Of a stretch of DNA of 40,847 nucleotides, positions 1 to 30,793 are shown one piece after another (within the stretch, counting starts at the first letter, position 1; each line of letters opens with the position of its first letter). The notes under the pieces were generated by a model that was not told the origin of the DNA, ran no database searches, and saw nothing but the letters and a program-made list of their open reading frames with translations. Position numbers and translations under genes: made by a program. The DNA is taken from assembly GCA_013287475.1 (NCBI GenBank), contig JABDDT010000020.1, positions 1-40,847 on the forward strand, given 5' to 3'. The DNA comes from Bacteroidota bacterium (GTDB lineage: Bacteria; Bacteroidota; Bacteroidia; Chitinophagales; Chitinophagaceae).

Positions 1-351
1 CAGGTAAAGGGAGCGGAAACCGAATTTGCTACAGTCATTGTTTTTTTACGTGAAGGACACGGTGGATTCATGTTCATTCATAATGAAAAAACAAAGACCC
101 GTTACAGCATTAAAGAACGTATGCTGGTGGAAGTAGCGAAAAGCATTGAAATCGCGTATGAACTTTGTCCCTTGTTTACCCAATACAATGTGGATATGGA
201 AGTTCATGCAGACATTAATACCAACCCGCATTTCAAGAGTAACGATGCATTGAAAGAAGCCATGGGTTATATTCTGGGTATGGGCTTTGCATTTAAAGCC
301 AAACCCGAAGCCTTTGCCAGCAGCAGCTGCGCAAACAAAGTGGTGAATTAA
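1..351 (+). CDS. YkuK-type ribonuclease H-like protein, 3' part only
   Basis: The reading frame is open from base 1 to the TAA at 349-351, so the N-terminus lies outside the window. The first residues, QVKGAETEFATVIVFL, match the strand that follows the GTDSQ motif of the YkuK/DUF458 RNase H-like family, and the first acidic residues must lie just upstream. The remaining 116 residues carry the conserved helix with YELCPLF, a second acidic motif (VDMEVHADIN) and the C-terminal GYILGMGFAFKAKPEA segment. Family members are about 150-170 residues, so roughly one third is missing. Function beyond a probable nuclease fold is not established. The gene converges on engB, and the stop codon opens a heptamer-repeat tract shared by the two 3' ends. 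Confidence 0.8.
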   Translation, partial: QVKGAETEFATVIVFLREGHGGFMFIHNEKTKTRYSIKERMLVEVAKSIEIAYELCPLFTQYNVDMEVHADINTNPHFKSNDALKEAMGYILGMGFAFKAKPEAFASSSCANKVVN

Positions 352-446
352 GCATAAGGCGTAAAGCACAAAGCGTAAGGCTTAATTCTGAATGCTGAAG
401 GCTAAAACTTAAATGCGTTACGCGTTTAGCTTTAGGCTTTAAGCAT
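349..446. repeat. Imperfect inverted heptamer-unit tract between convergent genes
   Basis: Degenerate units of the AAAGCGT/AAGGCGT type run right from the TAA stop of the upstream gene (349-386). A reverse-complement set runs at 412-446 and contains the engB stop codon (439-441). The arms pair imperfectly, so a long hairpin is possible on both strands. It may act as a bidirectional terminator (inference). The tract belongs to the same architecture as the other 7/8-bp tracts in this window. Confidence 0.65.
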
Positions 447-1068
447 TCTTCCAGTCCTCATTCATTTCTCCGATCAGTTGGAGTATGTCAGCCCTGCCTG
501 TTTTTTTTTCAGCGCTCGTTACAAAGTGTCGGGGAAGGAATTGCCAGTGCTCACTCATTTTTTTAAGAAAAGATTTCACATTTGCAGATACCGTTCTCTG
601 ATTTTCTTTATCTGACTTTGTAAATATCAATGTAAAAGGAATCTCCCATTTCCCCAGCCTGTCTGCAAAATCAAGATCCAGTTTTTGTGGTTCATGACGA
701 CTGTCGATCAGTAGAAATACATGGGCCAGGGTTTCTCTTTTTTTTAGAAATTCTTCGATCATTGTTTCCCACTTCTTTCTCTGTGATAAAGAAACTTTGG
801 CAAATCCGTATCCTGGCAAATCTACCAGCCACCATTTGGACGCGACTCTTTTCTCATCAATGCTTTCGATGGTAAAATGATTGATGAGTTGTGTTTTACC
901 CGGTGCTGCCGAAGTTTTCGCCAGTTTATCAATATCGGTGAGCATATTGATAAGTGAAGATTTGCCCACATTACTTCTTCCAATAAATGCATATTCCGGA
1001 AGGTCGGTTTCCGGGCAATCTTTATAAGAAGGACTGCTGATAACATACTTTGCCGTGCGGATCTCCAT
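439..1068 (-). CDS. engB: Ribosome biogenesis GTPase EngB (YihA/YsxC)
   Basis: This 209-residue TRAFAC GTPase has all G motifs: G1 GRSNVGKSSLIN near residue 31, the PGKTQ switch I segment, G3 DLPGYGFA near residue 83, G4 TKSD near residue 150, and G5 SAEKKTG near residue 185. The length fits the family (about 195-210). EngB acts in assembly of the large ribosomal subunit in the cytoplasm. The start ATG gives MEIRTAKYVIS, which is typical of the family. The last two codons and the stop (AAT GCT TAA) lie inside the heptamer tract shared with the convergent upstream gene. The gene diverges from the truncated ubiE with about 80 bases between the starts. Confidence 0.95.
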   Translation of the reverse strand: MEIRTAKYVISSPSYKDCPETDLPEYAFIGRSNVGKSSLINMLTDIDKLAKTSAAPGKTQLINHFTIESIDEKRVASKWWLVDLPGYGFAKVSLSQRKKWETMIEEFLKKRETLAHVFLLIDSRHEPQKLDLDFADRLGKWEIPFTLIFTKSDKENQRTVSANVKSFLKKMSEHWQFLPRHFVTSAEKKTGRADILQLIGEMNEDWKNA

Positions 1069-1137
1069 AATGCAAGATATGATTCCATCTTAAAGGTTAG
1101 GACGAATGAAAATATCTATTTCCTGCGACGAACCAAC

Positions 1138-1145
1138 TAATTTTG
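1138..1145 (+). promoter_or_regulatory. Bacteroidota -7 box (TAATTTTG) before ubiE
   Basis: TAATTTTG fits the TAnnTTTG consensus of the Bacteroidota primary sigma factor. It overlaps a possible TTG start at 1143 and ends 6 bases before the ATG at 1152. The mRNA would therefore have a very short or absent leader, and the ATG at 1152 is the better start. A -33 TTG is not obvious. Confidence 0.4.
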
Positions 1146-1151
1146 CATCCC

Positions 1152-1577
1152 ATGCCGGAATATCATCACGATACCATCGTTCCTTTTAAAAATTCGGATA
1201 CGCCTAAAAAACAACAGGTTGCAGAAATGTTCGATAAAATCGCATTTCGATATGATTTCCTGAACCGTTTTCTTAGTGCAGGTATTGACAGGAACTGGCG
1301 TAAAAAAGCAATCCGCGAACTTAGTCAGTTAAAACCGGGGACGATCCTGGATGTTGCGACCGGAACTGCAGATATGCCGATATTAATGCAGAAGATTCTA
1401 CAACCCGACCAGATTACTGGAATCGATATCTCAGAAGCTATGCTCGAACTGGGTAAACAGAAAATTGCAAAAGCATATGATAATAGGTTTTTCGAATGTA
1501 CCGAAAAAACATGTCAGCAAAAAAAATATATGTTACTAGTTGATTATCTTTTGTGCTCCGGAAACATATTCACCTGA
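1152..1577 (+). pseudogene. ubiE: Truncated demethylmenaquinone methyltransferase (UbiE/MenG), N-terminal half
   Basis: The first ~115 residues are a clear UbiE/MenG start: the FDKIAFRYDFLNRFLS segment and SAM-binding motif I (ILDVATGTADM), followed by ITGIDISEAMLELG. The similarity I can recognise stops around residue 115 (near base 1495). The frame then runs about 27 unrelated residues to a TGA at 1575-1577. Intact proteins are about 235-245 residues, so motifs II and III are missing. The tail overlaps by 42 bases the 3' end of the convergent metalloprotease-like gene. The enzyme normally methylates demethylmenaquinone. A deletion, replacement or insertion has removed the 3' half, unless the junction is an assembly chimera. 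A second intact copy would be expected elsewhere. Confidence 0.75.
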
Positions 1578-2480
1578 CCACTGCAGAACTAAAACTCCTG
1601 TATTTACAGTGCTTGTGCGGATTTCATTAAATCCTGTTTTCAGATTTCCCTGCATGAGTAATCGACCACTGATATCAAAAAGCCGGTAACTGTAATTACC
1701 TGAACTATTCAGTTCCAGGGATCCGGGTTCCTGTTTTTCTATCTTTACAGCATTGCCAGATAATGCAGTCTCTTCCCCGGTTTTCCGGTATCCTATATAG
1801 TTAGGTGCTCCAGCTATCATAGCTGTATCGCTTTGTAATTTTTGGGCTCCTGTTGATGGATGCCCGTCTTTCCAATCAGCCTGTTTATAAAACGGAATGC
1901 CCATCAGGGGTGCTTCACTTGATAGAATATTGTTTTCACCACCACTGAGCTCAGTAATCATGACTCCATAGGCGTCATACAGGCTTTGGTGTTGGAGACC
2001 TAATGTATGTCCTATCTGGTGTGTTGCTGCTGCTGCTATATATAAAGGATTATTTCCCATTGCATTCATAAAAACCCAGGCAGGCGTATCATCTCCCCAA
2101 ACAAATGATCCGATTGCCGAAACACCTGATACTTGTCCGTACCAGCTACCGTCCGGTGTGATGATGATTCGTATTCGCTGGTGTACAGGAGCTCTTTCAT
2201 ACACTGCAGGATCTGTAGTAATATTAAGATTGAACAATTTGAAATGGTCCGATATCAATTTATGGATCCAAATAACGGAGGCAGCGCTTAATCCGGATGG
2301 AGCAGCAAGTATCCTGCCCTGTTCATTCCAGATAGTACCATTCACTTCGGCTCCGTCAAAATCAAGATAAACTGTCGCTGCAGCAGGTGAATAACTATTA
2401 AGCAAGGGCGTTTGTGCGAATACATTTAAATGTATAAGCATGAATATGCAAACAATGATATGGATGGAATATTTTTTCAT
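1536..2480 (-). CDS. Secreted metalloprotease-like protein with T9SS tail; catalytic Glu replaced by Gln
   Basis: This 314-residue protein has a signal peptide (residues 1-22, ending VFAQ), a YLDFDGAEVNGTIWN strand, and a metzincin-like zinc site at residues 154-164 reading HQIGHTLGLQH. The three His ligands and the Gly of HExxHxxGxxH are kept, but the catalytic Glu is Gln155 (codon CAG). The C-terminal ~75 residues look like a type A Por secretion tail (YRLFDISGRLL, then TGVLVLQW), predicting export by the type IX system to the cell surface or medium. The zinc site should be intact but hydrolysis impaired, so this may be a binding protein or a decaying gene (inference). Its ATG overlaps the upstream gene's TGA as ATGA, so the two are probably translationally coupled. 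Confidence 0.75.
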   Translation of the reverse strand: MKKYSIHIIVCIFMLIHLNVFAQTPLLNSYSPAAATVYLDFDGAEVNGTIWNEQGRILAAPSGLSAASVIWIHKLISDHFKLFNLNITTDPAVYERAPVHQRIRIIITPDGSWYGQVSGVSAIGSFVWGDDTPAWVFMNAMGNNPLYIAAAATHQIGHTLGLQHQSLYDAYGVMITELSGGENNILSSEAPLMGIPFYKQADWKDGHPSTGAQKLQSDTAMIAGAPNYIGYRKTGEETALSGNAVKIEKQEPGSLELNSSGNYSYRLFDISGRLLMQGNLKTGFNEIRTSTVNTGVLVLQWSGEYVSGAQKIIN

Positions 2481-2902
2481 TCTGATACCAGAAATCTTTG
2501 TTGAGTTTCTATGAAAAAATACCGCTTGTCTTTTTCAATCAGCATCATTCCATCCGGATCATGCAATTTTAACAGACGACCGGTATAATAAATACCACCC
2601 TTTGGATCCCTGTATCGTGCAATGCTAAGCATGCTGCCTTCGGCATTATTTAGTTTGATCAGCAGAGAAATCACAGAATTTCCATGATCTGATTTGTTTT
2701 CAATTTTTCCTTTAATATGAAAGCCGGGGGCCAGTTCCACAGAAATATTTTCAGGTGCCTGGAACAGGGATTCCAAAGCCTGATCACTCACTTCAATTTT
2801 ATTTGAATAAGGAAGTTCAGCCGGGGCGGGTTTTTCTTGTGCTGAAAGCTGGAGACTGCATAATAAGCAAAGCCCGCTTAAGATTGTTTTCAGGGTGTTC
2901 AT
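2477..2902 (-). CDS. Small secreted protein of unknown function
   Basis: I do not recognise the family. Starting at the ATG at 2902 gives 141 residues with a good signal peptide (MNTLKTILSGLCLLCSLQL, then SAQ). An ATG at 2917 is possible, but it would overlap a dyad at 2913-2933 and put charged residues before the signal. The mature part is mixed beta-like, with IKGKIENKSD, then a RDPKGGIYYTGRL segment and a C-terminal KRYFFIETQQRFLVSE. Its stop overlaps the start of the metalloprotease-like gene (ATGA), so the two form an operon. It could be an accessory or inhibitor of that protein, which is only a guess from the coupling. Confidence 0.6.
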   Translation of the reverse strand: MNTLKTILSGLCLLCSLQLSAQEKPAPAELPYSNKIEVSDQALESLFQAPENISVELAPGFHIKGKIENKSDHGNSVISLLIKLNNAEGSMLSIARYRDPKGGIYYTGRLLKLHDPDGMMLIEKDKRYFFIETQQRFLVSE

Positions 2903-2912
2903 CGGATTCGGG

Positions 2913-2933
2913 GGCAATATTCGGAATATCGCC
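2913..2933. promoter_or_regulatory. 21-bp dyad upstream of the secreted two-gene operon
   Basis: The sequence GGCAATATTC-G-GAATATCGCC is a near-perfect palindrome with nine of ten pairs, centred on 2923. It lies 10-30 bases upstream of the ATG at 2902. The position suits an operator or a leader hairpin. No regulator gene is adjacent. Confidence 0.35.
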
Positions 2934-3000
2934 TTATTAAAAACGTATTCGCAGAGCTTTAATTGCAGTAAAAATCATCCCAATTTGGGAAAGGAAGCAA

Positions 3001-3141
3001 AGAAAGTATGGGAGTATGGGAGTATGGGAGTATGGGAATTCATAACTCATAATTCATATTCTATTCTAATCATAATTGGATTTAGTAAAAAGTTTTTAAT
3101 TCATTCCCATACTCCCATACTCCCATACTCCCATACTTTCT
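3001..3141. repeat. Perfect 39-bp inverted repeat made of four tandem octamers per arm
   Basis: The left arm 3001-3039 holds four copies of GTATGGGA (3007-3038) with a GAAA lead-in. The right arm 3103-3141 is its exact reverse complement. The loop of 63 bases is AT-rich. The right arm enters the TAG stop codon (3140-3142) of the minus-strand CoA-binding gene, so the transcript would fold into a very long hairpin right after the stop. The same octamer array with the same GAAA lead-in recurs after murD at 30747. It may act as a terminator or 3' stabiliser (inference). Confidence 0.85.
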
Positions 3142-3511
3142 AATATTGCCCTGTTGCCAATAAAACCAAAGTGCATGCCTCCATCACCTTAATCCCTTTA
3201 TCAGCAAGTATCATTTCAAACTCGGGATTTTCGGCGCCGGGATTGAAAATAACCCGACGTGGATGTTGTGAAAGAATATAATCGTAATAATTTTTCTGAT
3301 TATCCTTATTCAGATAAATCGAAACGGTATCAAGATCTGCATTCGGGGTGGTATTCACCTGAACAGTAACATCTGCAACTTGCGCTGGTCTTTTTCCAAT
3401 CGCAATAACAGGATGATTGTGTTCCCTCAACCTGTTGATGGCGAGAAAACTATAACGTGCGGGATTTGCTGATGCGCCGAGGACAACTGTTTTCTTGGAG
3501 ATAGAAGGCAT
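3140..3511 (-). CDS. CoA-binding domain protein (YccU-like)
   Basis: This 123-residue protein spans a single CoA_binding_2 Rossmann domain: VVLGASANPARYSFLAINRL at the N-terminus, PVIAIGK as the second strand, and RRVIFNPGAENPE with the NPG motif near residue 90. The family (about 115-145 residues) is thought to bind CoA. No enzymatic role is known, and none can be read here. The ATG at 3511 gives MPSISKKTVVLG with no room for more sequence. The gene stands alone between hairpin 3001-3141 and the TonB-domain gene upstream. Confidence 0.85.
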   Translation of the reverse strand: MPSISKKTVVLGASANPARYSFLAINRLREHNHPVIAIGKRPAQVADVTVQVNTTPNADLDTVSIYLNKDNQKNYYDYILSQHPRRVIFNPGAENPEFEMILADKGIKVMEACTLVLLATGQY

Positions 3512-3547
3512 AGTTTAATAACATCGGGAAGAACAGAAAGTTTAATA

Positions 3548-4294
3548 CTACTGAACTTCTAATTTAAAATTTACAGGCATCACTTTATATGTTGTAACCT
3601 TAATGCCATCCTTTATCCCCGGATCCCATTTACCGGATTCATTAATCACCTTGAGTGATTCCTGATCGAGGGAATATTCTATTGATTTTAGAATATATGA
3701 ATCCTTTACATTCCCATCTGCATCAACTTCAAAATAAATCTTAACCTGCCCCTGAATTTCTTTTGAAACAGCACGGTCAGGATAGGACAAATGATGACCC
3801 AGATAAGCATTCCATGCATTGATTCCGCCGGGGTAATCGGATTCTTTTGAATTGGCAGTATCCTTATCTTTTTCTGTATTGTTCTGTATATTGATCGATT
3901 TCACCAGGCTGTCTTCCACAAAATCATATTGGTGAATGATTGCAAAACTGTCCTTTGTATAAGTTCTGTATTTGTAAAAACTGCCGTTTTTCTTACCGCG
4001 ATCAAATACACCAACTGAGTCCAGGTTACCGTATGTGTTATATAAGCAAAATCTCCCATTAAGAATTTTGCCGTCATGGTCGGCAAAAGAAGTTGATTTC
4101 ACCAGTGATCCCCAGGTGTTATAATAATCCCATTGCCAGTTACTGTCTTCCTTTTCATGTATCCACAAAATATATTTAGAAGAATCCAGCACCGTTTGAT
4201 TCATATTCTTATCGAGGGCATAGAATTGATTTTTATCTTGGGAGAAAGAAAATAAAAAACATGAGCTGAAACAAAGGAGTAAAAGTAATTTCAT
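3548..4294 (-). CDS. Exported protein with TonB C-terminal domain
   Basis: The 248-residue product begins with a signal peptide (MKLLLLLCFSSCFLFSFSQ). The middle part, about residues 60-130, has MORN/YwqK-like strands (DHDGKILNGRFCLYN, then FDRGKKNGSFYKYR). The last ~95 residues form a TonB_C domain: GGINAWNAYLGHHLSYPDRA, then IQGQVKIYFEVDADGNVKD and a final VMPVNFKLEV. It lacks the uncleaved membrane anchor and Pro-rich spacer of classical TonB, so it is probably not an energy transducer but one of the many periplasmic Bacteroidota TonB_C proteins of unclear role. It stands alone, followed on the same strand by the CoA-binding gene 37 bases downstream. Confidence 0.75.
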   Translation of the reverse strand: MKLLLLLCFSSCFLFSFSQDKNQFYALDKNMNQTVLDSSKYILWIHEKEDSNWQWDYYNTWGSLVKSTSFADHDGKILNGRFCLYNTYGNLDSVGVFDRGKKNGSFYKYRTYTKDSFAIIHQYDFVEDSLVKSINIQNNTEKDKDTANSKESDYPGGINAWNAYLGHHLSYPDRAVSKEIQGQVKIYFEVDADGNVKDSYILKSIEYSLDQESLKVINESGKWDPGIKDGIKVTTYKVMPVNFKLEVQ

Positions 4295-4340
4295 TCAACA
4301 AATTATTAAATAATTGGGATATTACTAATCATCTTATTTT

Positions 4341-4398
4341 AGTGTGGCAGTATGATAGTGTGGAAGAGCAATAACTACCACACTTCCACACTTTCTTC
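4341..4398. repeat. Inverted AGTGTGG-unit tract after the FAD oxidoreductase gene
   Basis: Units AGTGTGG/AAGTGTGG appear at 4341-4363, with reverse complements at 4376-4396. The two arms pair over about 18 positions with three mismatches. The right arm begins directly after the TGA stop (4397-4399) of the minus-strand oxidoreductase with a GAAAG lead-in, as in the 3001 and 30747 tracts. It is a probable 3' hairpin of the operon that ends here. Confidence 0.65.
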
Positions 4399-5530
4399 AA
4401 AACCTTTCACCATGTGTTTTCCGGATCAGCGCCCGCACCAGGAATGGGAAGGGTTTCAGAACACGGATCAGGCATATTGACCAGAATGCTTTACCGAAAA
4501 AACGCTGAATCAGCCGACCCGTTTTTAACCTGCCTGCAAATTCAAGGTTCCAGCTTTTCTGATAGGATGCTTCCATCTCTTCACGGGAAATCTGATTTTC
4601 AAGAAAAAGAGGAATTATTTCAGCCGCAATTTTGGATGAATGCAGGGCCATACTCATTCCATTACCACAGAGAGGTGTAATCATTCCAGCCGCATCTCCG
4701 ATACAAAGTACATGACGTTCTAACTGCGTTTTTTCTGAAAAGCTGATTTGAGAAATTGTTACGGGTTCTTCATATAATATTAACACTTCATCCAGTAATT
4801 TTCGGAGGGCAGGATTTTTTTTCAGGATTTTTTCCTCCATAACCGGAATGGATGATTGGTTATTCTTTAGATTGTCAGATTGGGTGAGATAGCAAAGGCA
4901 ATATTTTCCATCTTCAATTTTAGAAATTCCGCAATAACCTCCCTGAAAATTATGGAGTGTGATCTCATGTTCAGGTAAATGACTTTTCACATGATATTTT
5001 ACCCCGACATAATTTTTGGATTCATCCTGTTGCAGGAACTTTCGCTTCCATTTCACATCGAGATTGCTTTTTTTCCCATAACAGGCACAGGCGATTTTTA
5101 CAATAAATGAGCCCTCGCTGGTTTGAATTCGATGATTTCCTTCTTCAAAATTGATATCATAGACTTTAGTATTTTCAAATATCTCCACATCAGCGGACTT
5201 TGCAATATCCGCCAATGAAGCATCCAGCTTATACCTGCTGATTCCAAATCCGCCGAGCGGCAGTTTTTCTGAAATGGATTCCCCATTGGGAGCCGATATA
5301 TTTACCTGATTTATCCTGGGCAAGTTCCAATTTTCAAGAGGGAGGCCGAGACGGATCAAAAAATCCCAGCTCTCCATACTGATGTATTCACCACAAACTT
5401 TATGAAAAGGAAAAACTTCTTTTTCGAACAGGCATACACGATAGCCCTTACGTGAAAGCAGGATGGATAAGGATAACCCGGCAAGGCCACCACCTACAAT
5501 TCCAACATCATATATTTGTTTTGTATTCAC
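4397..5530 (-). CDS. FAD-dependent oxidoreductase of the type III PKS operon
   Basis: This is a geranylgeranyl reductase/aromatic hydroxylase-type flavoprotein. The N-terminal Rossmann motif GGGLAGLSLSILLSRKG ends in the ribose-binding FEKE. KVCGEYIS follows, and the second FAD motif CIGDAAGMITPLCGNGMSMA sits about 100 residues from the end. I prefer the GTG at 5530, which overlaps the methyltransferase TGA as GTGA and gives VNTKQIYDVGIVGGG (377 residues). An ATG at 5569 in the same frame would overlap the upstream gene by 43 bases. It is the last gene of the UbiA-PKS-methyltransferase-oxidoreductase operon. By analogy with the Streptomyces srs operon, it may hydroxylate the phenolic ring (inference). 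Confidence 0.8.
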   Translation of the reverse strand: MNTKQIYDVGIVGGGLAGLSLSILLSRKGYRVCLFEKEVFPFHKVCGEYISMESWDFLIRLGLPLENWNLPRINQVNISAPNGESISEKLPLGGFGISRYKLDASLADIAKSADVEIFENTKVYDINFEEGNHRIQTSEGSFIVKIACACYGKKSNLDVKWKRKFLQQDESKNYVGVKYHVKSHLPEHEITLHNFQGGYCGISKIEDGKYCLCYLTQSDNLKNNQSSIPVMEEKILKKNPALRKLLDEVLILYEEPVTISQISFSEKTQLERHVLCIGDAAGMITPLCGNGMSMALHSSKIAAEIIPLFLENQISREEMEASYQKSWNLEFAGRLKTGRLIQRFFGKAFWSICLIRVLKPFPFLVRALIRKTHGERF

Positions 5531-6276
5531 GAGCGGACGATCACTAACCAACGGAAGGCCCATTTCCACTGAATGGTATAATGTAACATTCCAGCTTTAA
5601 GCAATAATTCTTCCAATTCTTTTTTTTTGAATCCACGCAATACGGATAAAGGTGCATCATTTTTTACCAGGTAGGATTTAGAAAATAATGAAGTCAGTAA
5701 GCGGATCGAATGATATGCCAGTGGATTTCGATGCAGATCATTTATGAAAAACCCGGAACGGCTGTTTTCCCTCATCCAGCGTAACATTTCAATAAGATCA
5801 GATTCTTTGAAGTGATGGCAGAATAAAGAACAAAAAATAATATCGGGTTTTGACTGAAAATGTACTTTTCTATAGTCATTCACCAGGAATAAAACGGGTC
5901 TTTTCCAATTAATATTTTCTGCAACCCGTATGCAATCCGGATTAATATCTACACCTGTAAAACGCATGTCCGGATATTTGCCGGTTGCTTTTCGTTCGAT
6001 AGTTTTCAGATTGTCCCCCCCTCCGCAGCCGATTTCACATACATGAGCCGCCTTTCCTTTTTTTGCAAGCTCAATAAATCCCTTCCAGGTGCATGCATGT
6101 CCGCCGAGTTTCTGGTTTATGATTGAAAGTTCCAGAAGATTCCGTTCAATATCAGCTACCGGAATATTGGGTTGGTCAAGTAGTTCCAGTCTTTCTGAGC
6201 GGAGTGAGAAATCCATATATTCAAAAAAATGCTTTGGGCCAGGAATTGTACTTAAACCTCTAATGTCTTTAAACAT
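5527..6276 (-). CDS. SAM-dependent methyltransferase of the type III PKS operon
   Basis: This 249-residue class I methyltransferase has motif I at HVCEIGCGGGDNL (near residue 90), the acidic end of strand 2 at FTGVDINPDCI, and IIFCSLFCHHF as the motif IV region. The start could be ATG 6276 or ATG 6216 (MDFSLRSERLELLD). The latter is where homology-like sequence begins, and the former is kept for lack of better evidence. The stop overlaps the GTG start of the FAD oxidoreductase. The gap to the PKS upstream (92 bases) contains the heptamer tract 6343-6384. It probably O- or C-methylates the polyketide-derived phenol (inference from context). Confidence 0.8.
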   Translation of the reverse strand: MFKDIRGLSTIPGPKHFFEYMDFSLRSERLELLDQPNIPVADIERNLLELSIINQKLGGHACTWKGFIELAKKGKAAHVCEIGCGGGDNLKTIERKATGKYPDMRFTGVDINPDCIRVAENINWKRPVLFLVNDYRKVHFQSKPDIIFCSLFCHHFKESDLIEMLRWMRENSRSGFFINDLHRNPLAYHSIRLLTSLFSKSYLVKNDAPLSVLRGFKKKELEELLLKAGMLHYTIQWKWAFRWLVIVRS

Positions 6277-6342
6277 TCAGTTTTATACCATATACGGTAT
6301 TCGTATTCACTAAAGTTACGAAAGATAAAGCCTTACAGCATT

Positions 6343-6384
6343 CAGCGTTTAGCGTTCAGCGTTAGGCGTTAAGCGTTAAGCGTG
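6343..6384. repeat. Six tandem heptamers overlapping the PKS stop codon
   Basis: Six consecutive 7-mers of the form NAGCGTT run 6343-6384 (cagcgtt, tagcgtt, cagcgtt, aggcgtt, aagcgtt, aagcgtg). The stop codon of the minus-strand PKS (6369-6371) and its last codons (Thr-Leu-Asn-Ala) lie inside the array. The repeat therefore supplies the protein C-terminus. There is no clear opposite arm. Confidence 0.85.
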
Positions 6385-7469
6385 GAACCAACCATAAAGG
6401 TTTCCATTGTTAAGCCCGGGCCGAATGCAGCGCCAAATACCGTTTGCTTTTTCGATTTGTCAAGGGTAGATAAAATTTCCTTTAACACAAATAAAATGGT
6501 GGGCGAAGACATATTTCCAAACTCACGAAGAACCTGATAGGATATTTCCATTTTTTCTTTTGGCAATGACAGGCTTTTTGCAATTGCCTCTAATATCCTT
6601 CTGCCACCCGGGTGAATGGCCCAATACGTTATCTGATCACGCTGAATACATTGCTTTTCCAGGGCCTGATTCACCAGTTTTTCAAAATCTTCTTCTATCA
6701 GTTCGGGTATATAACTGCTCAGGGTCATATTAAATCCTGTAGAAGATAATTCCCAGGACATATCCTGTTTTCCTTTCGGCATTACTTCACCATAAAATCC
6801 AATAAGCGGAAAACCGGTAGTATCACCCCGATCGCCGGTAACCAGAACAGCTGCCGAGCCATCTCCAAAAAGCAGGCTGGAAGTAATATTATCAGTTGTG
6901 GCAAGTTGTTGGAAGTGTAAAGTGCAGAGTTCCGTGCAAACGATCATTACTTTGGCTGAAGGGTCAGTCTGGCAAAATGCATCTGCCAGTTTGAGCGCAT
7001 GAATCGCAGCATAGCAACCCATAAAATTTACAGAACTCCTGAAAATATTTTTTGGAAGATCCAATAACTCCATCAGTTGTAAGTCCAGTCCCGGCGCACT
7101 TAACCCGGTACATGTAACTGTAATTAAATGAGTAATTTCCTTTGGATCGAGTTTATTTTCGATACAATTCTGAATGGCATTAGCTGACAAGCCCACTGCA
7201 TATTTGTTAAAAATTTTCATCCTCTTTTCAAGAGAGGGAAATGGCTCCAGATTTTCTGCCGGTGGATAGAAAGTCCATTCTTCGGGTTCCTTGCTATAAT
7301 CTGATAAAACTGAATAACGAGTGGAAATTCCACTCTGATGATATAAGTATTTAAGTGAACGCCTTTCTCTTTCATTAAAGGCATAAATACGGCTCATGAA
7401 ACGCAGAATTTCATTCTGTTCATGTTTGAAATGCGGGACTGCTGTTCCGATGAATTTAATCTGGCTCAA
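6369..7469 (-). CDS. Type III polyketide synthase (chalcone/alkylresorcinol synthase family)
   Basis: This 366-residue thiolase-fold synthase has the full catalytic triad: Cys152 in NFMGCYAAIHAL, His286 in WAIHPGGRRIL and Asn319 in REFGNMSSPT. The spacing of 134 and 33 residues is close to plant chalcone synthase. The C-terminal FGPGLTMET loop is the family signature. It condenses malonyl-CoA onto an acyl-CoA starter. Neither substrate nor cyclisation mode can be read from sequence. It sits 18 bases after UbiA and before a methyltransferase and a flavoprotein, a set that suggests a prenylated or long-chain phenolic lipid or quinone. The last codons are encoded by the heptamer array at 6343-6384. 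Confidence 0.9.
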   Translation of the reverse strand: MSQIKFIGTAVPHFKHEQNEILRFMSRIYAFNERERRSLKYLYHQSGISTRYSVLSDYSKEPEEWTFYPPAENLEPFPSLEKRMKIFNKYAVGLSANAIQNCIENKLDPKEITHLITVTCTGLSAPGLDLQLMELLDLPKNIFRSSVNFMGCYAAIHALKLADAFCQTDPSAKVMIVCTELCTLHFQQLATTDNITSSLLFGDGSAAVLVTGDRGDTTGFPLIGFYGEVMPKGKQDMSWELSSTGFNMTLSSYIPELIEEDFEKLVNQALEKQCIQRDQITYWAIHPGGRRILEAIAKSLSLPKEKMEISYQVLREFGNMSSPTILFVLKEILSTLDKSKKQTVFGAAFGPGLTMETFMVGSTLNA

Positions 7470-7487
7470 TCAATTATATTAAAAAGT

Positions 7488-8348
7488 TTATGACCATACC
7501 ATCAGAAATACAATAATAAAGCCAATGCTCGTAAAGCTGGACGCGACAATATTCATTCGCATTGTATTCCTGAAATTGGCTAAAGAAGGATTTCGCCAAA
7601 CTTGTAAGGCCCACCCTGTAAAGTATACGAGTACTGGCAGCATACAGGTTGATAAAATTAAAAATTCTTTTTCTTCGAGAGATATTAGTAAGAAATATGT
7701 TAAAATAGCAAAGGCAATTCCATAAATAATACCGCAGAATATAAATGTGCCCCGGATCCCCAACATTGCACTGATCGTCTTAACGCCGTCTTTTGCGTCC
7801 GCTTCATGCTGATAAATCTGTGTAAGCGGATAAAATCCACCAATCAACAAAGATGCAGAAATCATTCCCAGGGTTGGTACCTGAAGCGATAACATTGGAT
7901 GAGACCCGTGATATACCATAAAAAAAACCAGGGCGCCCTGGCAGGCAATTACTGTCGCATATCCTATCAGTGGATATTTTTTTAATCGAATGGATCTTGC
8001 ACTGTAAGCCCGGGATGCCAGAATATATATTGCTGTTGCGATTGTGAAATATATACTGATAAATAATCCGAGAAGCAGGGCGAGAGCGTCCATGACCAGA
8101 CTGACATAGAGTAATTCCTTTGTTGGCGGAAGTGGTGATTTGAGTCCACCAATACTACCTTCATCCCGGTCCATATAACTATTGAATCCATTGCTGGATG
8201 GATATATTAATAAGTGCAGAATTATAAAAATGAGAAGGGCTCTTTTAGTATCAGGATTGGCCACCTGACTAAGTGCAAACCAATAAACGGGCATAAGGAA
8301 AAAAGAAAAATGAAATCGCAGTAGCTGGATCGTAGATCGCCTGATCAT
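7488..8348 (-). CDS. UbiA-family prenyltransferase
   Basis: This is a 286-residue integral membrane protein with about eight hydrophobic segments. The first Asp-rich motif reads NSYMDRDEGSIGG near residue 55, and the second reads EADAKDGVKT near residue 180. Both fit Mg-diphosphate sites of the UbiA superfamily, although the canonical NDxxDxxxD spacing is altered in the first one. The start MIRRSTIQLLRFHFSFFLMP is typical of Bacteroidota members of this type. It is the first gene of the operon with PKS, methyltransferase and flavoprotein, so it probably prenylates the polyketide product (inference). The 246 bases upstream hold no gene or clear TAnnTTTG box on this strand. Confidence 0.85.
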   Translation of the reverse strand: MIRRSTIQLLRFHFSFFLMPVYWFALSQVANPDTKRALLIFIILHLLIYPSSNGFNSYMDRDEGSIGGLKSPLPPTKELLYVSLVMDALALLLGLFISIYFTIATAIYILASRAYSARSIRLKKYPLIGYATVIACQGALVFFMVYHGSHPMLSLQVPTLGMISASLLIGGFYPLTQIYQHEADAKDGVKTISAMLGIRGTFIFCGIIYGIAFAILTYFLLISLEEKEFLILSTCMLPVLVYFTGWALQVWRNPSLANFRNTMRMNIVASSFTSIGFIIVFLMVWS

Positions 8349-8594
8349 CTTTAGAATAGTTAATCTGATGGTAAACAGAAGGTAAGAAACTTAGCGGGAT
8401 TATATCTTTTTGGAAAATCCAACCACGACAAGTTTTCTCTTACAGCTGGAAATTCTTTCCGTTGCTGGGAAAAATACCTTTATTAACTTATTGAATTATA
8501 GCATTTTGTGCAATGGTATGGATTTCGTTTCCAATAAGAGAGAACAGCTTCACTGAGTGCAGGAAGCCACAAAATAATTAACCATGGACGGTTA

Positions 8595-10271
8595 TTAAAC
8601 AAGCATTCGCAGGGGCTCTTCAAGGAGCCCCTTCAGCGTTTGCAGAAATGCAGCGCCGGTTGCACCATCTACCACACGATGATCGCAGGTCATGGTGAGC
8701 TTCATAACATTCCCTGGAACAATAGCTCCATTCTTTACAACGGGAATTTGTTGAATTGAACTGATGGCGAGTATACATGAATCCGGTGGATTGATGATAG
8801 CAGTAAATTCATCCATTCCAAACATACCAAGGTTTGATATTGTAAAAGTGCTCCCTTCCCATTCTGAAGGCTGCAATTTTTTATTCTTTGCTTTGGTAGC
8901 AAAATCTTTTACTTCCACCGAAATTTGAGAGAGTGATTTGGTATCTGCAAACCGAACAACGGGAACCAGCAACCCATCTTCAACAGCAACAGCCACGCCG
9001 ATATTCACATGATGATTTACACGTATCTTATCACCCATCCAACTGCTGTTTACAGCAGGATGTTTTTTCAGGGCCAGTGCGGTGGCTTTCAGGACAAAAT
9101 CATTGAAAGATATTTTAACAGGAGCGGTTTCATTAATTTTTACCCGGCTATTTACAGCCTGGTCCATATCGACCTGAATGGTCAGATAAAATTCCGGAGC
9201 TGAGAATTTGGCTTCTGACAGCCGTTTTGCAATGGTCTTACGCATTTGAGAAACAGGTACATCCTCAAAGCTTATTTGTCCTGCGGGAGCTGAAGGAATT
9301 GAAACATTTTTTTGTGCCGCCGGTTCAGATATTGATGGCTTAAATTCAACAACGTCTTTCTTGATAATTCGCCCATAATCTCCGCTTCCATGAAGTTGTG
9401 AAAGATCTATTCCTTTTTCGCTAGCCAGTTTTTTTGCCAGGGGCGATGCTTTGATCCTCCCGTCACCATTCAGGAAATGCGAGGTAGAAGCTGAAGCAAC
9501 GGGTTCAGGCACTGGTTTCGATGACATGGGTTCAGCTGCTGGCTCATTCGCAGCTGCCGGTGCGGCCCCTTTATTTTTTGATGCTTCTACTATTTGCTGC
9601 ACGTTTACTTTTCCTTCTTCGCCAATGATGGCCAGTAAATCATTTACTGCAATCTTCTGACCTTTTTCTGCACCCGTATATAATAATTTTCCTTCCTTAT
9701 AACTTTCCAGTTCCATCGTTGCCTTATCCGTTTCAATATCTGCAAGAATATCTCCTTTTTTCACCATGTCCCCCACTTTCTTATGCCAGTCTGCAATAAC
9801 ACCTTCTGTCATCGTATCACTAAGCCGGGGCATGAGAATTACTTCCTGCATGTTTGCTAAATTAAGACCAGTCGAAGTTGAAGTTGACGGTTGACGGTTG
9901 GCGGTTGGTGGATTTTCCTGTTTAGCTGCCACAGAAGCCGGAGCATTACTGGATTTAGCATCAGGTGCGGGTACGGGAGAAGGCGCCGGAGTTTTTGAAG
10001 TACCACTCTTCACGAGTGTACTGATATCTTCTCCAGGTTTACCGATGATGGCCAGTAAATCATTCACCTGAATTTTACCTCCTTTATCAGTGCCGGTAAA
10101 TAAGAGTGTTCCGTCTTTGTAACTTTCCAGGTCCATCGTTGCTTTGTCGGTTTCCACTTCAGCTAGCAGGTCGCCTTTTTTCACACTATCTCCCACTTTT
10201 TTATGCCAGGCAGCAATCACACCTTCAGTCATGGTATCACTTAGTCTGGGCATTAAAATAACTTCTGCCAT
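8595..10271 (-). CDS. aceF: Pyruvate dehydrogenase E2, dihydrolipoamide acetyltransferase with two lipoyl domains
   Basis: The 558-residue product has lipoyl domain 1 (residues 2-78, Lys43 in ETDKATMDLES), a Pro/Ala linker, lipoyl domain 2 (142-218, Lys183 in ETDKATMELES), a second linker, a peripheral-subunit-binding domain (about 275-310, IKASPLAKKLASEKGIDL), and the catalytic domain ending with CDHRVVDGATGAAF, which contains the HxxxDG active site. It transfers the acetyl group to CoA in the cytosolic PDH complex. No E1 or E3 gene is adjacent. The first interdomain linker contains an in-frame heptamer array (9884-9911, residues about 121-130), which looks like a recent insertion. Confidence 0.93.
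   Translation of the reverse strand: MAEVILMPRLSDTMTEGVIAAWHKKVGDSVKKGDLLAEVETDKATMDLESYKDGTLLFTGTDKGGKIQVNDLLAIIGKPGEDISTLVKSGTSKTPAPSPVPAPDAKSSNAPASVAAKQENPPTANRQPSTSTSTGLNLANMQEVILMPRLSDTMTEGVIADWHKKVGDMVKKGDILADIETDKATMELESYKEGKLLYTGAEKGQKIAVNDLLAIIGEEGKVNVQQIVEASKNKGAAPAAANEPAAEPMSSKPVPEPVASASTSHFLNGDGRIKASPLAKKLASEKGIDLSQLHGSGDYGRIIKKDVVEFKPSISEPAAQKNVSIPSAPAGQISFEDVPVSQMRKTIAKRLSEAKFSAPEFYLTIQVDMDQAVNSRVKINETAPVKISFNDFVLKATALALKKHPAVNSSWMGDKIRVNHHVNIGVAVAVEDGLLVPVVRFADTKSLSQISVEVKDFATKAKNKKLQPSEWEGSTFTISNLGMFGMDEFTAIINPPDSCILAISSIQQIPVVKNGAIVPGNVMKLTMTCDHRVVDGATGAAFLQTLKGLLEEPLRMLV
9884..9911. repeat. Four tandem heptamers inside the aceF linker
   Basis: Four 7-mers (ttgacgg, ttgacgg, ttggcgg, ttggtgg) lie within the coding strand of aceF. 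They encode PPTANRQPST on the minus strand. The TTGACGG unit recurs at 18951-18965 between atpC and yqgE. The reading frame is kept, and the site is a flexible linker that can tolerate extra residues. Confidence 0.8.
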
Positions 10272-10341
10272 AAAACTGGATAATTTTGAAATTTGGAACT
10301 TCGAAATTAAGGCAAAAACGTGAAATGCAGGGTCATTCGGA

Positions 10342-18587: not shown

Positions 18588-18594
18588 CTAATTT

Positions 18595-18662: not shown

Positions 18663-18669
18663 TGTTTTT

Positions 18670-18921: not shown

Positions 18922-18930
18922 TTTATAGCG

Positions 18931-19002: not shown

Positions 19003-19548
19003 TAACTGCGGATCGATCGGAAAATTGAGCATCATCAGATAATTTCCCCCAAGATGCCTGATAGCATCTTTCCAGATTTCATCCGTCTTTTTATGAAAAA
19101 TGAGTTTTTGACTTGCTTTAGCCGGCAACCAGGATTTTTCTTTTAATTCATCTTCCAGTTGTCCGCCCGCCCAGCCTGAGTAACCTATATAAAATCGGAT
19201 CTTTGAAGTCTTGATTTTCCCTGAGCGAATGAGTTCCAGCGCTTTTTCAAAATTCCCACCCCAGTAAATACCATCAATTACCTGATAACCACCCTTTATA
19301 AGTTCAGGATACTGATGTAGAAAATGTATGGTATCCGTCTGAACAGGTCCTCCGAAATATACCGGGATTTCAAGATCATCTGCGTTGTTTACAAGATCTT
19401 TTAAGCTGTACTCGTAGGTTTTATTTAACAAAAAGCCGAAACTTCCCTCACTTTGGTGTTCGCAAAGGAAAATAACCGACCTTTTAAAATTAGGATCTTT
19501 CAGAAACGGGTCAGCGATCAGCAAGATACCAGCCGCGGGACTGTCCAT
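18997..19548 (-). CDS. YqgE/AlgH family protein (DUF179)
   Basis: This is a 183-residue single-domain protein. It opens with the family signature AAGILLIADPFLKDPNFKRSV, then FLCEHQSEGSFGFLLNK and YFGGPVQTD, followed by YIGYSGWAGGQLEDEL near residue 125. The molecular function is unknown; E. coli YqgE and Pseudomonas AlgH are the named relatives. ATG 19548 gives MDSPAAGILL. It is convergent with atpC and divergent from the histidine kinase. Confidence 0.9.
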   Translation of the reverse strand: MDSPAAGILLIADPFLKDPNFKRSVIFLCEHQSEGSFGFLLNKTYEYSLKDLVNNADDLEIPVYFGGPVQTDTIHFLHQYPELIKGGYQVIDGIYWGGNFEKALELIRSGKIKTSKIRFYIGYSGWAGGQLEDELKEKSWLPAKASQKLIFHKKTDEIWKDAIRHLGGNYLMMLNFPIDPQLN

Positions 19549-19583
19549 ATTGTAATTTAACGAATCTGAAGATAATTGTTTAA

Positions 19584-19591
19584 TAAATTTG
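19584..19591 (+). promoter_or_regulatory. Bacteroidota -7 box (TAAATTTG) before the histidine kinase
   Basis: TAAATTTG fits TAnnTTTG and lies 53 bases before the TTG start at 19645, in the 96-base gap between divergent genes. Confidence 0.45.
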
Positions 19592-19644
19592 CACGCAATA
19601 TAAAGACAGACAATGGGTTCAATTTAGTTTAAATACAGACTTTC

Positions 19645-21030
19645 TTGAAGAAAAATTTTACCATCATTTTTATTCTGATCAGCGTTTCCCTCATAGGAAT
19701 TATCTATATCCAATGGAACTGGATTTCGACCATGGTGGAAAACAAGGAAGAAGAATTGAATCATAAACTGAATGACGTTACAACCGACGTTTTCCGTGAA
19801 CTGATTGAGTATAAACAAACGGCTCTTTCGGGCAGTCAGTTGCTTCAGTCTCCACAAAGTTTTGGATTCCGGCCTTCAGAACAATTCAGGCGGGAACTTA
19901 TGAGACCCCTGTTGATTTCGCAGCGGTTCAGTTATCAGGAGATGTCAGATATTCTCAGAAAGGCTTTTAATTATAGGGGATTAAAAGATACAAAATTTGA
20001 ATTTTGTATCTTTTCGGGGGGAGGCTTCACCTCTTCCATATTTTCGAATAATAATGAATTAAAGTCACCTAATTATTTCGCTGCTTTCACGGATACTATA
20101 CATAACCTTCGTACGATTCTGCCTCTCATCGCTAATACGATGGAGCTCACCGGAACCGAACCAATTGAAACGCTTTCTATAGTAGTTCCGGATTACAAAG
20201 ATGTTGTAATGAAACAAATGAGGTGGATGATTTTTGGTGTGATATTTTTTACGCTGATCATCGTAAGTGCATTTTATGTTACGGTTAGGACTTTACTGAT
20301 GCAGAAAAAACTGAGCGAAATAAAAAATGATTTTATTAATAACATGACGCATGAATTTAAAACTCCACTGGCTACGATATCACTGGCCGTGGATGCCATG
20401 AGAAATGAGAAAGTGGTGCGCGATCAGGAAAAGTCAGCATATTTCAGTGGAATAATCAAGGAAGAGAACCGACGCATGAATAAACAGGTGGAGACTATTT
20501 TGCAGGCTGCGCTGATCGATCGCCAGGAACTGCAGTTAAAGCTGCAACCCCTCCATATTAATGATGTGATCCGGCGGGTGATGGAGAATTTTAAACTTCA
20601 ACTGGAAGAAATTCATGCAAACGTAATTCTGCAACTGGAAGAAGGCTATGACATAGCACAGGCAGATGAAGTGCATTTTACCAATTTGATTTCTAACCTG
20701 ATAGACAATGCGATTAAATATTCGAGGGAAAAACTTACAATTCGAATTCAAACCCATCGTAGTGGGAAAAATATGCTTATAAAAGTGGAAGACAATGGAA
20801 TAGGTATGTCCAAAGAAACACAGCGGCGGATATTTGAAAAATTCTTCCGGGCACATACAGGTAATGTGCATAACGTAAAAGGATTTGGACTGGGACTTAG
20901 CTATGTTAAGTCTGTCGTGGACGCCCACGGCGGTCGCATCAGAGTAGATAGTACCATAGGAAAAGGAACCACATTCACTTTGGAAATTCCACTTATCCGT
21001 CAGGAAAAAGGCTTAACTATCAAAGTTTAG
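19645..21030 (+). CDS. Membrane sensor histidine kinase
   Basis: The 461-residue kinase has TM1 at about 5-25, a periplasmic sensor of about 160 residues without recognisable domain, and TM2 at about 192-214. HisKA carries His236 in NNMTHEFKTPLA. HATPase_c has the N box NLIDNAIKYSRE, G1 VEDNGIGMS, F box IFEKFFRAH and G2 VKGFGLGLSYVKSVV. It autophosphorylates and signals to a response regulator, yet none is encoded next to it. The start is a TTG (MKKNFTIIFIL); no ATG lies close enough to keep TM1. The 3' end overlaps queA tail to tail by four bases. The ligand is unknown. Confidence 0.9.
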   Translation: MKKNFTIIFILISVSLIGIIYIQWNWISTMVENKEEELNHKLNDVTTDVFRELIEYKQTALSGSQLLQSPQSFGFRPSEQFRRELMRPLLISQRFSYQEMSDILRKAFNYRGLKDTKFEFCIFSGGGFTSSIFSNNNELKSPNYFAAFTDTIHNLRTILPLIANTMELTGTEPIETLSIVVPDYKDVVMKQMRWMIFGVIFFTLIIVSAFYVTVRTLLMQKKLSEIKNDFINNMTHEFKTPLATISLAVDAMRNEKVVRDQEKSAYFSGIIKEENRRMNKQVETILQAALIDRQELQLKLQPLHINDVIRRVMENFKLQLEEIHANVILQLEEGYDIAQADEVHFTNLISNLIDNAIKYSREKLTIRIQTHRSGKNMLIKVEDNGIGMSKETQRRIFEKFFRAHTGNVHNVKGFGLGLSYVKSVVDAHGGRIRVDSTIGKGTTFTLEIPLIRQEKGLTIKV

Positions 21031-29200: not shown

Positions 29201-29203
29201 TTT

Positions 29204-29260
29204 GGTTGATGGTATATGGTGTGTGGTGTATGGATATCCATAAACCATCTACCATTAACC
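29204..29260. repeat. Heptamer hairpin after mraY
   Basis: Left units ggttgat, ggtatat, ggtgtgt and ggtgtat (29204-29231) face right units ccataaa, ccatcta and ccattaa (29238-29258). The arms form an imperfect hairpin three bases after the mraY stop. The unit class is shared with 18931-19002. Confidence 0.7.
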
Positions 29261-29330
29261 GGAAACCAAAAAAATTGTGGTGCAGTATTTATCTATGCTT
29301 TTGAAAAACCCTGATCCGCCCTTTTTGGAG

Positions 29331-29384
29331 CATGGTGTAAGGTAGATGGGAAATCAAAAATCCATTAACCATCCACCACAAACC
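29331..29384. repeat. Second heptamer hairpin, before murD
   Basis: Left part catggtg, taaggta, gatggga (29331-29351) and right part built of ccattaa, ccatcca and ccacaaa (29362-29382) form a weak inverted pair 25 bases before the murD ATG. The 70 bases between this and the previous hairpin hold nothing I recognise. Confidence 0.5.
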
Positions 29385-29408
29385 AGAAAAGATTTAAGAA
29401 CTAAGAGT

Positions 29409-30746
29409 ATGTCAAAATTAGTGATCCTGGGTGCCGGTGAGAGCGGCGTTGGAGCAGCTATCCTGGCTGTTAAAGAAGGGTACCAGGTATTTGTTTCAGA
29501 TGCAGGGTTGATTTTAGAAAAATATAAATCGATCCTTGCAGAAAAAGAAATTGAATACGAAGAAGGTAAACACAGTGAAGAAAGAATACTGGAAGCAGAT
29601 GAAGTGATGAAGAGTCCTGGTATACCTGAAAAGAGTTCTTTGGTAATTAAAATAAGGAGTAGTGGCATTCCTGTGATCAGTGAAATTGAATTGGCTTATC
29701 GTCATAAAGGAGGAAGCAGGATTGTAGGGATCACCGGAAGTAATGGGAAAACAACCACTACTTCCATGACCTATCATATCTGTAAGCATGGAGGTCTGGA
29801 TTGTGCGATGGTCGGAAATATCGGTATCTCTTTTGCGAAACAGGTTGCAGAAGATCCGAAACAATGGTATATCGCGGAAATCAGCAGTTTTCAGTTGGAT
29901 GATATTAAGGAATTCCGGCCGGATATCGCTATTCTGACAAATATCACTGAAGACCACCTGGACAGATATGAATATAAGTTTGAGAATTATATCAGGAGCA
30001 AATTCAGTATTATAAAAAACCAGACGAAAACCGATTATTTTATTTTTTGTGCAGACGATCCCACGATCAAGCAACATATAAAAAAATTTAGTTTTCAATC
30101 TAACCCATTACCATATACCATGCAAAAGGAACCAAATCCGGGAGGTTTTATCAGGAACGGGCAGATGAGTCTGCAGGCAGGAAATGAAACTTTGAAAATG
30201 AGTATTTATGATTTCGCTTTGAAAGGAATCCATAACCAATATAATACACTTGCAGCGGGGCTGGCTGCAGTTACCATTGGTATACGCAAGGATAAAATCC
30301 GGGAGGCAGTCCAGAGTTTTGAATCGCTGGAGCACAGAATGGAGTACGTAAGTACGGTACGGGGAGTTGAATTTATTAACGATAGCAAAGCCACAAATGT
30401 AAATTCTACCTGGTATGCATTGGAAAGTATGCAGAAACCTGTTGTATTGATACTTGGTGGAATAGATAAAGGAAATGATTATTCCCTGATTCGTGACCTG
30501 GTAAAAGAAAAGGTTAAAGCTATCGTATGTATGGGTTTGGACAACCGAAAGATCCATGATGCATTTCAAAATGATGTACCGGTGATCGTCAATACAGGTT
30601 CGGCCATAGAAGCTGTAAAAAGTAGTTTTCAGCTGGCAGTTAAAGGTGATATTGTTTTATTGAGCCCTGCCTGCGCCAGTTTTGATCTGTTTAAAAATTA
30701 TGAGGACAGAGGTAATCAGTTTAAAGAAGCAGTGAGAGACCTATAA
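29409..30746 (+). CDS. murD: UDP-N-acetylmuramoylalanine--D-glutamate ligase
   Basis: The 445-residue Mur ligase starts at ATG 29409 (MSKLVILGAGESGVGAA). The longer frame from 29346 would translate repeat-derived sequence. The ATP loop ITGSNGKTTTTSM is near residue 112, ISSFQLDDI and ITEDHLDRYE follow, and the C-terminal domain has FINDSKATNVNSTWYAL and LLSPACASFDLFKNYEDRG. It adds D-Glu to UDP-MurNAc-L-Ala. The stop is followed at once by the octamer array 30747-30793. Confidence 0.95.
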   Translation: MSKLVILGAGESGVGAAILAVKEGYQVFVSDAGLILEKYKSILAEKEIEYEEGKHSEERILEADEVMKSPGIPEKSSLVIKIRSSGIPVISEIELAYRHKGGSRIVGITGSNGKTTTTSMTYHICKHGGLDCAMVGNIGISFAKQVAEDPKQWYIAEISSFQLDDIKEFRPDIAILTNITEDHLDRYEYKFENYIRSKFSIIKNQTKTDYFIFCADDPTIKQHIKKFSFQSNPLPYTMQKEPNPGGFIRNGQMSLQAGNETLKMSIYDFALKGIHNQYNTLAAGLAAVTIGIRKDKIREAVQSFESLEHRMEYVSTVRGVEFINDSKATNVNSTWYALESMQKPVVLILGGIDKGNDYSLIRDLVKEKVKAIVCMGLDNRKIHDAFQNDVPVIVNTGSAIEAVKSSFQLAVKGDIVLLSPACASFDLFKNYEDRGNQFKEAVRDL

Positions 30747-30793
30747 GAAAGTATGGGAGTATGGGAGTATGGGAGTATGGGAGTACGGGAGTT
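30747..30793. repeat. Five tandem octamers after murD
   Basis: Four GTATGGGA units and one GTACGGGA run 30751-30790, preceded by GAAA directly after the murD TAA. About 36 bases are identical to the left arm of the 3001-3141 hairpin 27.7 kb away. Here no reverse-complement arm is present, so this is a single-arm form. Confidence 0.85.

Follow-up and report, generated by a model that had tools for sequence, protein, structure and literature searches.

What kind of process fills the borders of bacterial genes with tandem repeats that share a unit length of 7 or 8 bp but differ in unit sequence? The question is raised by contig JABDDT010000020.1 of a Chitinophagaceae bacterium (assembly GCA_013287475.1, here genome G000), the 40,847 nucleotides of which are referred to below as the window and which, judging by protein families, presumably carry a cell-wall and cell-division cluster and an atpD-atpC pair, the gene names atpD-like and atpC-like being provisional. 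The initial annotation listed 11 tracts of this kind and attributed them to an active process acting at gene 3' ends rather than to one ancestral repeat. All 11 exist: 9 are covered by Tandem Repeats Finder (TRF; 27 rows in the window at score 30), the tract at 29204 by a weak row at 29209, and the tract at 29331, for which TRF gave no row, was read by eye (Table). We suggest, with middling confidence, that such arrays arise by replication slippage and hairpin template switching, with spread of repeat words between loci, a reading that leaves the step of 7 or 8 unaccounted for.

The source assembly (3.16 Mb in 137 contigs, 74% complete; the window is its contig C20) was sampled as the window and 40 further stretches, each 20 kb long, from contigs C1-C21, giving 840,847 bases or approximately 27% of the assembly. 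Genes were called with a custom scorer of open reading frames (ORFs), which missed the ftsW-like gene (30817-32070), the gene at 34526-35515 and the atpC-like gene of the window, and some gaps are misclassed. At a score of at least 12, the sample contains 90 period-7 and 46 period-8 tracts, with none of periods 4-6, 9, 10, and 12 and a single tract each of periods 3, 11, and 13; one Markov-shuffled copy of the sample yielded no tract of period 7 or 8. Among longer periods, 14, 16, 21, 24, and 28, all multiples of 7 or 8, are frequent (13-64), and periods 17, 18, 22, 26, 27, and 29 are represented by one or two tracts each. Lowering the score to 9 gives 198 tracts in 54 unit classes, and merging at score 10 gives 163 tracts, 110 of period 7 and 53 of period 8, which form the set analyzed below. 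A separate scan for periodicity within the window, with a score of at least 10 required, found 3 tracts of period 7, 5 of period 8, 2 of period 13, and 1 of period 14, with none of periods 4-6, 9-12, and 15, and at most 0.5 per period in ten shuffles. The shared period with many different units, noted in the initial annotation from the window, is thus borne out across the sample.

The units fall into recognizable families. Octamers mostly follow AGT-R-T-R-R-G (AGTATGGG, AGTGTGAG, and AGTATAAG), with AGTGTGGT occurring too, and heptamers belong to the families TAAVGC, GGTTGRC, AATTGTY, and TATGRGW and to several smaller groups, leaving 7 of the 163 tracts unclassed. By eye, single arrays are often mosaics of near-variant units, many of the differences being A/G. 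Of 48 octamer arrays, 37 begin with AGT on their outer side, and the inner end is looser; heptamer arrays have no fixed outer start, and a search for a gradient of decay beyond the array ends gave no clear polarity.

The arrays lie mostly between genes and close to stop codons. In the sample, 149 of the 163 tracts are intergenic, 9 are genic, and 5 lie at stretch edges, and their density is highest in convergent gaps (3.22 per kb), lower in tandem gaps (1.71), and lowest in divergent ones (0.51). A stop codon lies within 10 nt of 75 of 135 tracts (74 under another offset), 35 of which overlap the gene, compared with 33.8 (standard deviation 4.3, highest 48 in 2,000 trials) when tracts were placed at random in the same gaps. 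Within the window, 9 of the 11 tracts originally listed contain, touch, or follow a stop codon (0-10 nt), the others being 9883-9908, which lies in a gene, and 29332-29384 on the 5' side of murD. The predicted enrichment at stop codons holds in the sample, but the placement does not support a process restricted to 3' ends: 9 tracts are genic, 14 lie between divergent genes, and 9883-9908 sits in a coding linker. Within 25 nt of a stop codon, the motif strand is family-fixed in 76 of 79 tracts, leaving out 5 tracts of the class "other"; family patterns and the "sense" strand were derived from the same data, which favors small families. Among solo arrays in tandem gaps, those near the upstream stop codon are 18 sense and 8 antisense, and those near a start codon 7 antisense and 2 sense. 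The congener G005 has gap densities per kb of 5.51 (convergent), 2.25 (tandem), and 1.2 (divergent), inflated because 3 of its 6 stretches were picked for AGTATGGG matches; 16 of its 26 tracts are at most 10 nt from a stop codon and 11 of 29 have an inverted partner versus 1 of 29 a direct one, counts that carry no placement null. Seven other congeners, pooled and likewise without a placement null, give 0.86, 0.72, and 0 per kb, and hence little convergent excess, with 14 of 26 tracts within 10 nt of a stop codon, inverted partners for 8 of 26, direct ones for 1 of 26, and 8 of 40 tracts genic.

Where arrays are neighbors, they tend to face each other. Neighboring arrays of the same family are inward-facing in 30 cases, direct in 3, and outward-facing in none, and those of different families in 9, 6, and 1, respectively. 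Two inverted arms, initially described as usual, were recognized by eye at 7 of the 11 window tracts and not at 6343, 9884, 13983, and 30747. Both arms of octamer pairs belong to the same subfamily in 12 of 12 cases and have a similarity of 0.96, versus 0.58 between loci, a figure that mixes subfamilies; the corresponding values are 0.92 and 0.82 for AATTGTY (4 pairs) and 0.82 and 0.79 for TATGRGW (3 pairs). In 7 of 12 octamer pairs, the arms are equally long or their lengths are separated by a multiple of 8. Comparison between arms gave 865 matches, 16 G-U wobble pairs, 17 A-C pairs, and 35 transversions; the excess of G-U over A-C that would signal selection at the RNA level was not seen (16 versus 17), which fits copying at the DNA level. 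As a separate observation, the hairpins L114:11821-11897 and L141:9648-9724, at different loci, have equal arm and loop lengths (33-19-25) and unlike loop sequences.

The words themselves are specific to lineages. Across 33 genomes of the genus (assemblies 58-99% complete; word matches overlap, with several per array), AGTRTRRG occurs 307 times in G000, 99 times in G005, once each in G016 and G019, and never in the other 29; its reversed control gave 77 matches in G000 and 2 in G005, the pattern read backward also fitting AGTGTGAG arrays, and the controls of TAAVGC, AATKTGAA, and GGTRTRA are 0. TAAVGC has 437 matches in G000, 117 in G005, 48 in G016, 4 in G019, 2 in G015, and 0 in 28 others. 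AATKTGAA, absent from 23 genomes including G000 and G005, has 67 matches in G006, 41 in G019, 35 in G025, 23 in G008, 19 in G026, 8 in G024, 5 in G015, 2 in G020, and 1 each in G016 and G010, and GGTRTRA, scanned after the unit of G015 had been seen, has 140 in G015, 12 in G020, 1 in G026, and 0 in the other 30. A density survey of 28 genomes (16-841 kb each) found at least one tract in 11 and none in 17, among the latter G024, the survey sample of which is empty despite its 8 AATKTGAA matches genome-wide. In a separate observation, at G005:C32:15115-15511 one pair of heptamer matches recurs three times with a spacing of 185 bases, so that these heptamers appear to be embedded in a longer tandem repeat.

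Orthologous gaps were compared directly. In a collinear stretch of G000 and G005 with 16 such gaps, arrays are present in both genomes in 2, in G000 only in 3, and in neither in 11. At the mraY-murD site occupied in G000 by 29332-29384, G016 has other heptamers (TTGACCG and GGCGTTG), and the gap of the more distant L028 has GTGAATN heptamers (both by eye). Identical tracts were not seen at the orthologous sites compared. The murD-ftsW gap of another more distant relative, L060, holds hexamer-type CTGTTC/CTGTTT arrays with an inverted partner, an exception to the 7/8 rule.

The atpD-atpC gap allows the replacement of words to be viewed at a single site. The gap is readable in 27 genomes including G000 (G018 is cut short and 5 of 33 have no match), and atpC follows it in all 27, with 67-100% identity. 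Arrays, called by eye, are present in 6 of the 27: AGTGTGAG in G000, AATGTGAA in G008, AATTTGAA in G006, AATTTGAA mixed with 7-mers in G026, GGTATAA heptamers in G015, which alone has switched period, and a one-armed TTTTCAAT array in G016. In G024, two decayed octamers are found; no 7/8 array was seen in the other 20 genomes, two of which (G020 and G002) show another stem. On the atpD tree, where G000, G016, G006, and G008 form a clade (support 100/98), the 6 carriers require three changes versus a shuffled mean of 5.5. AGTRTRRG is absent from G006, G008, and G015, the gap words of which differ from that of G000. Given the genome-wide counts of AATKTGAA, GGTRTRA, and AGTRTRRG, this one site suggests that the word in the gap tends to be the one prevalent in the respective genome.

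The shared period, the variety of units, the enrichment at 3' ends, the lineage-specific occurrence, and the likeness of arms together support an active process over one ancestral repeat, as initially proposed. Judging from these sequence patterns, replication slippage would add or remove whole units of 7 or 8 bases, and the replicating strand, switching templates inside a hairpin, would copy one arm into its inverted partner; template switching can make and mend hairpins (PMC8794818). New words would then spread among loci, a site being rewritten with the current word of the genome, and selection would keep most arrays out of genes and promoters, so that they survive mainly between genes and beside stop codons. 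Any cellular role is likewise inferred: the arrays probably act as gene-border or 3'-untranslated-region hairpins and in some places as terminators.

Several observations weigh against slippage and template switching with spread between loci. The fixed outer AGT of octamers suggests a defined end beyond what slippage alone gives. Of the 163 tracts, 92 have neither an inverted nor a direct 12-mer partner within 150 nt. The mixing of subfamilies in the between-loci value weakens the octamer comparison, and the arms of the large TAAVGC family are only slightly more alike than unrelated ones (0.73 versus 0.67 in 9 pairs; 6 of 9), and only 4 of 18 heptamer pairs have arms of equal length or of lengths separated by a multiple of 7, near chance. 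The strand rule is weaker when tracts are assigned to the nearest gene edge, with 112 of 147 classed tracts oriented away from the gene and 35 facing it (away/toward 41/5 in convergent gaps, 40/18 on the 3' and 22/7 on the 5' side of tandem gaps, 9/5 in divergent gaps), and hairpin copying does not account for the strand preference of solo arrays. Spread between loci rests on one gap, for which independent insertion at a preferred place is an alternative; there, G016 fits poorly, with its one-armed array and a single genome match of its word, and AATTTGAA, AATGTGAA, and AGTGTGAG are stepwise 1-2 letters apart, making concerted drift of one ancestral octamer possible.

Of the other explanations, insertion of mobile elements is improbable. 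The hairpins would be non-autonomous insertions of the repetitive extragenic palindromic (REP)/REPIN kind or miniature inverted-repeat transposable elements (MITEs), moved by a Y1 or other transposase, which suits the many dispersed copies with flanks that by eye are unrelated except for A-rich bases before AGT, the fixed outer AGT of the octamers, and the absence of arrays from several orthologous gaps in relatives. However, copies differ in their number of units, inspection by eye rather than a formal test showed no target-site duplications, and the array-bearing genomes G000, G005, G016, G019, G006, and G008 have no match to Y1_Tnp (PF01797), although array-bearing G026, G015, G025, and G020 do and the G000 assembly is incomplete.

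Ordinary intrinsic terminators with stems that are periodic by coincidence are unlikely to a similar degree. The preference for convergent gaps and stop codons is what terminators would show, and an 8-nt stretch with at least 5 T is found at 12 of 42 hairpin exits, versus 9.9% of 1,116 background 8-mers; yet the other 30 exits lack a T-run, and neither the periods of 7 and 8 nor the solo arrays are accounted for. Moreover, window arrays lie in the mraY-murD, murD-ftsW, and atpD-atpC gaps, which separate usually co-transcribed genes. A simple terminator scan of window positions 1-20000 returned 23 sites (shuffles 17.8, standard deviation 5.0), none of them at arrays.

A telomerase-like reverse transcriptase synthesizing the repeats on an RNA template is very unlikely. 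Its products would keep a constant outer phase and step, vary at the inner end, and point inward from both sides of a break, and the octamers have a fixed outer and loose inner phase, one subfamily per pair, and, within families, 30 inward versus 0 outward pairs. The many families would require many templates, however, and RVT_1 (PF00078) has no match in the 6 array-bearing genomes just named or in G015 (other polymerases were not searched), although it is present in 13 of the 33 incompletely assembled genomes of the genus, including array-bearing G025 and G026. Both enzymes were set aside as agents, with neither profile matching in those 6 genomes; G025 and G026 have both. Finally, paired binding sites of a chromosome-organizing or global regulator protein, the proposal made for an equal layout of opposite-strand pairs of tandem 7-/8-mers in several classes per genome in Geobacter metallireducens (PMC2700814), are likewise very unlikely here, as the at least 5 unlike families of G000 and the other words of other species are hard to reconcile with one protein and the placement prefers 3' ends and avoids divergent gaps.

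Heptamer arrays are not new. Cyanobacterial STRR, heptamer short tandem repeats dispersed in the genome, were reportedly described by Mazel et al. in 1990, and the G000 arrays likewise are dispersed tandem 7-bp units that are mainly intergenic, with octamers in addition. The statement in the initial annotation that no named family of this kind exists was too strong, similar layouts having been published for G. metallireducens, Xanthomonas, and Nostoc; a literature search of one open library found no report of such a layout in Chitinophagaceae. The repeats of G. metallireducens are tandem 7-/8-mers of 3-5 units in opposite-strand pairs, with several classes per genome, hypothesized to be regulator sites, and none in G. 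sulfurreducens (PMC2700814); G000 shows the same pairing in its 30 inward same-family pairs, besides its 92 partnerless tracts. In contrast, the G. metallireducens classes hold 8-24 pairs each and are interpreted as protein sites, and in the available part of that report nothing was encountered on location at stop codons, resemblance of the two arms, or exchange of units in orthologous gaps. The GGGAATC and GGGGA(C/T)T heptamers of Xanthomonas and Nostoc are also mainly non-coding, scarce between divergent genes, and on the coding strand near stops and the non-coding strand near starts (PMC4692102), but they represent one G-rich, quadruplex-capable unit type, whereas G000 has many units, most without GGG, as well as octamers and inward pairs. 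Four G-tracts of at least 3 per array, as a G-quadruplex would need, are not found in arrays of AGTGTGAG, AATTGTT, or TAAAGC, the units of which lack GGG; four-unit AGTATGGG arrays would have them. Stem P6b of the Nostoc trnL intron resembles the G000 hairpins in being built of degenerate heptamers, in having indels of complete 7-nt units in one arm or in both, and in the repeated substitution of one repeat class for another at a single site (PMC4476775), but is a single intron locus, whereas the G000 arrays are dispersed. TAACTGA repeats of Beggiatoaceae, Cyanobacteria, and five Bacteroidetes form dispersed intergenic heptamer arrays too (PMC4679880), but with one unit that, in the main genome, lies mostly just upstream of start codons.

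The excess of heptamer repeats in bacteria is known, without an explanation in the literature consulted; for the step itself, PMC4692102 quotes from others a link to the length of DNA held by the polymerase. G000 unites the published features in a single genome and with a large variety of words, an argument for a rule independent of sequence: several families of different sequence, the 7/8 period, the strong strand rule, and the species words make the effect separable from any particular sequence, such as quadruplexes or the site of one binding protein. A bolder and doubtful extension is that hairpin slots at gene borders are respelled in concert, copying in steps of 7 or 8 nt swapping in the current word of the species, whatever its sequence; one such process may also lie behind the heptamers of Nostoc, Xanthomonas, and Geobacter. 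Orthologous sites allow word replacement to be followed, and the arrays may be a naturally occurring example of hairpins that template switching builds and maintains at the DNA level.

Table. Period-7/8 features in the window, with their placement and their orthologous gaps in relatives.
Feature	Position	Strand	Placement and comparison	Basis
Degenerate heptamer hairpin, TAAGCAT/AAGGCGT units	348-444		Arms approximately 348-384 and 415-444; stop TAA 349-351 inside first arm	TRF row 350-378 and reading of the sequence
Octamer arm AGTATGGG, 4.1 copies	3005-3037	+		TRF
Octamer arm AGTATGGG, 4.1 copies	3105-3137	-	Inward partner of 3005-3037; 2 nt from stop end of gene 3140-3511 (-); absent from orthologous gap of G005	
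Octamer hairpin AGTGTGGN	4341-4392		Adjoins stop end of gene at 4397 (-); absent from orthologous gap of G005	TRF
Single heptamer array, AAGCGTT class (sense TAACGC)	6328-6383	-	Covers stop of gene 6369-7469 (-); absent from orthologous gap of G005, G016, G006	TRF
Heptamer array GTTGACG	9883-9908	+	Within dihydrolipoamide acyltransferase gene 8595-10271 (-), linker residues approximately 122-130; not a 3' end	
Short heptamer array TTTAAGC, 2.4 copies	13981-13997	-	6 nt from stop end of dnaX-like gene 14004-15767 (-); none seen in orthologous gaps of G005, G016, G008, G006, G019	
Octamer hairpin AGTGTGAG	18595-18662		Between atpD-like (stop 18587) and atpC-like (ATG 18670) genes; rare unit CGTGTGAG in both arms	
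Degenerate heptamer hairpin ATGGTAT	18932-18997		After atpC-like stop 18921; TTGACGG array 18950-18964 in loop	TRF
Degenerate heptamer hairpin GGTTGATGGTATATGGT...	29204-29260		3 nt past mraY-like stop 29200; one 7-mer difference between arms (by eye); none seen in G016, G019, G006, G008	By eye
Degenerate hairpin, ATGGTNN units	29332-29384		Upstream of probable murD start 29409	By eye
Single octamer array AGTATGGG, 5.4 copies	30750-30792	+	Directly past murD stop 30746, upstream of ftsW-like gene; none seen in G016, G019, G006, G008	TRF

The TRF rows behind these features start at 350 (period 14, or 2 x 7), 3005, 3105, 4374, 6328, 9883, 13981, 18595, 18629, 18950, 18974, and 30750; further period-7/8 rows, unnamed in the initial annotation, start at 3040, 20398, 23131, 24586, and 31502. 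The linker stretch of the acyltransferase comprises 61 residues in G000 and 52, 46, and 54 in G005, G016, and G008, respectively, the array DNA apparently being accepted as coding sequence. The best relatives of MurD are mostly from Chitinophagaceae, and most of 80 relatives align to the ORF only from approximately residue 24, so that ATG 29409 is probably the start codon.

Two elements of the window are not arrays. Between mraY and murD, at approximately 29272-29325, AATTGTGGTGCAGTA (29273) is followed by CTTTTGAAAAACCC and ATCCG, a succession recognizable by eye in many relatives and without an Rfam match, the whole window having no Rfam match at the gathering score. In the gap of genes 7488-8348 (-) and 8595-10271 (-), ATGGTATGGATTTCG at 8513-8527 is recognizable in the same gap of congeners and may serve the gene at 7488-8348 as a promoter or leader.

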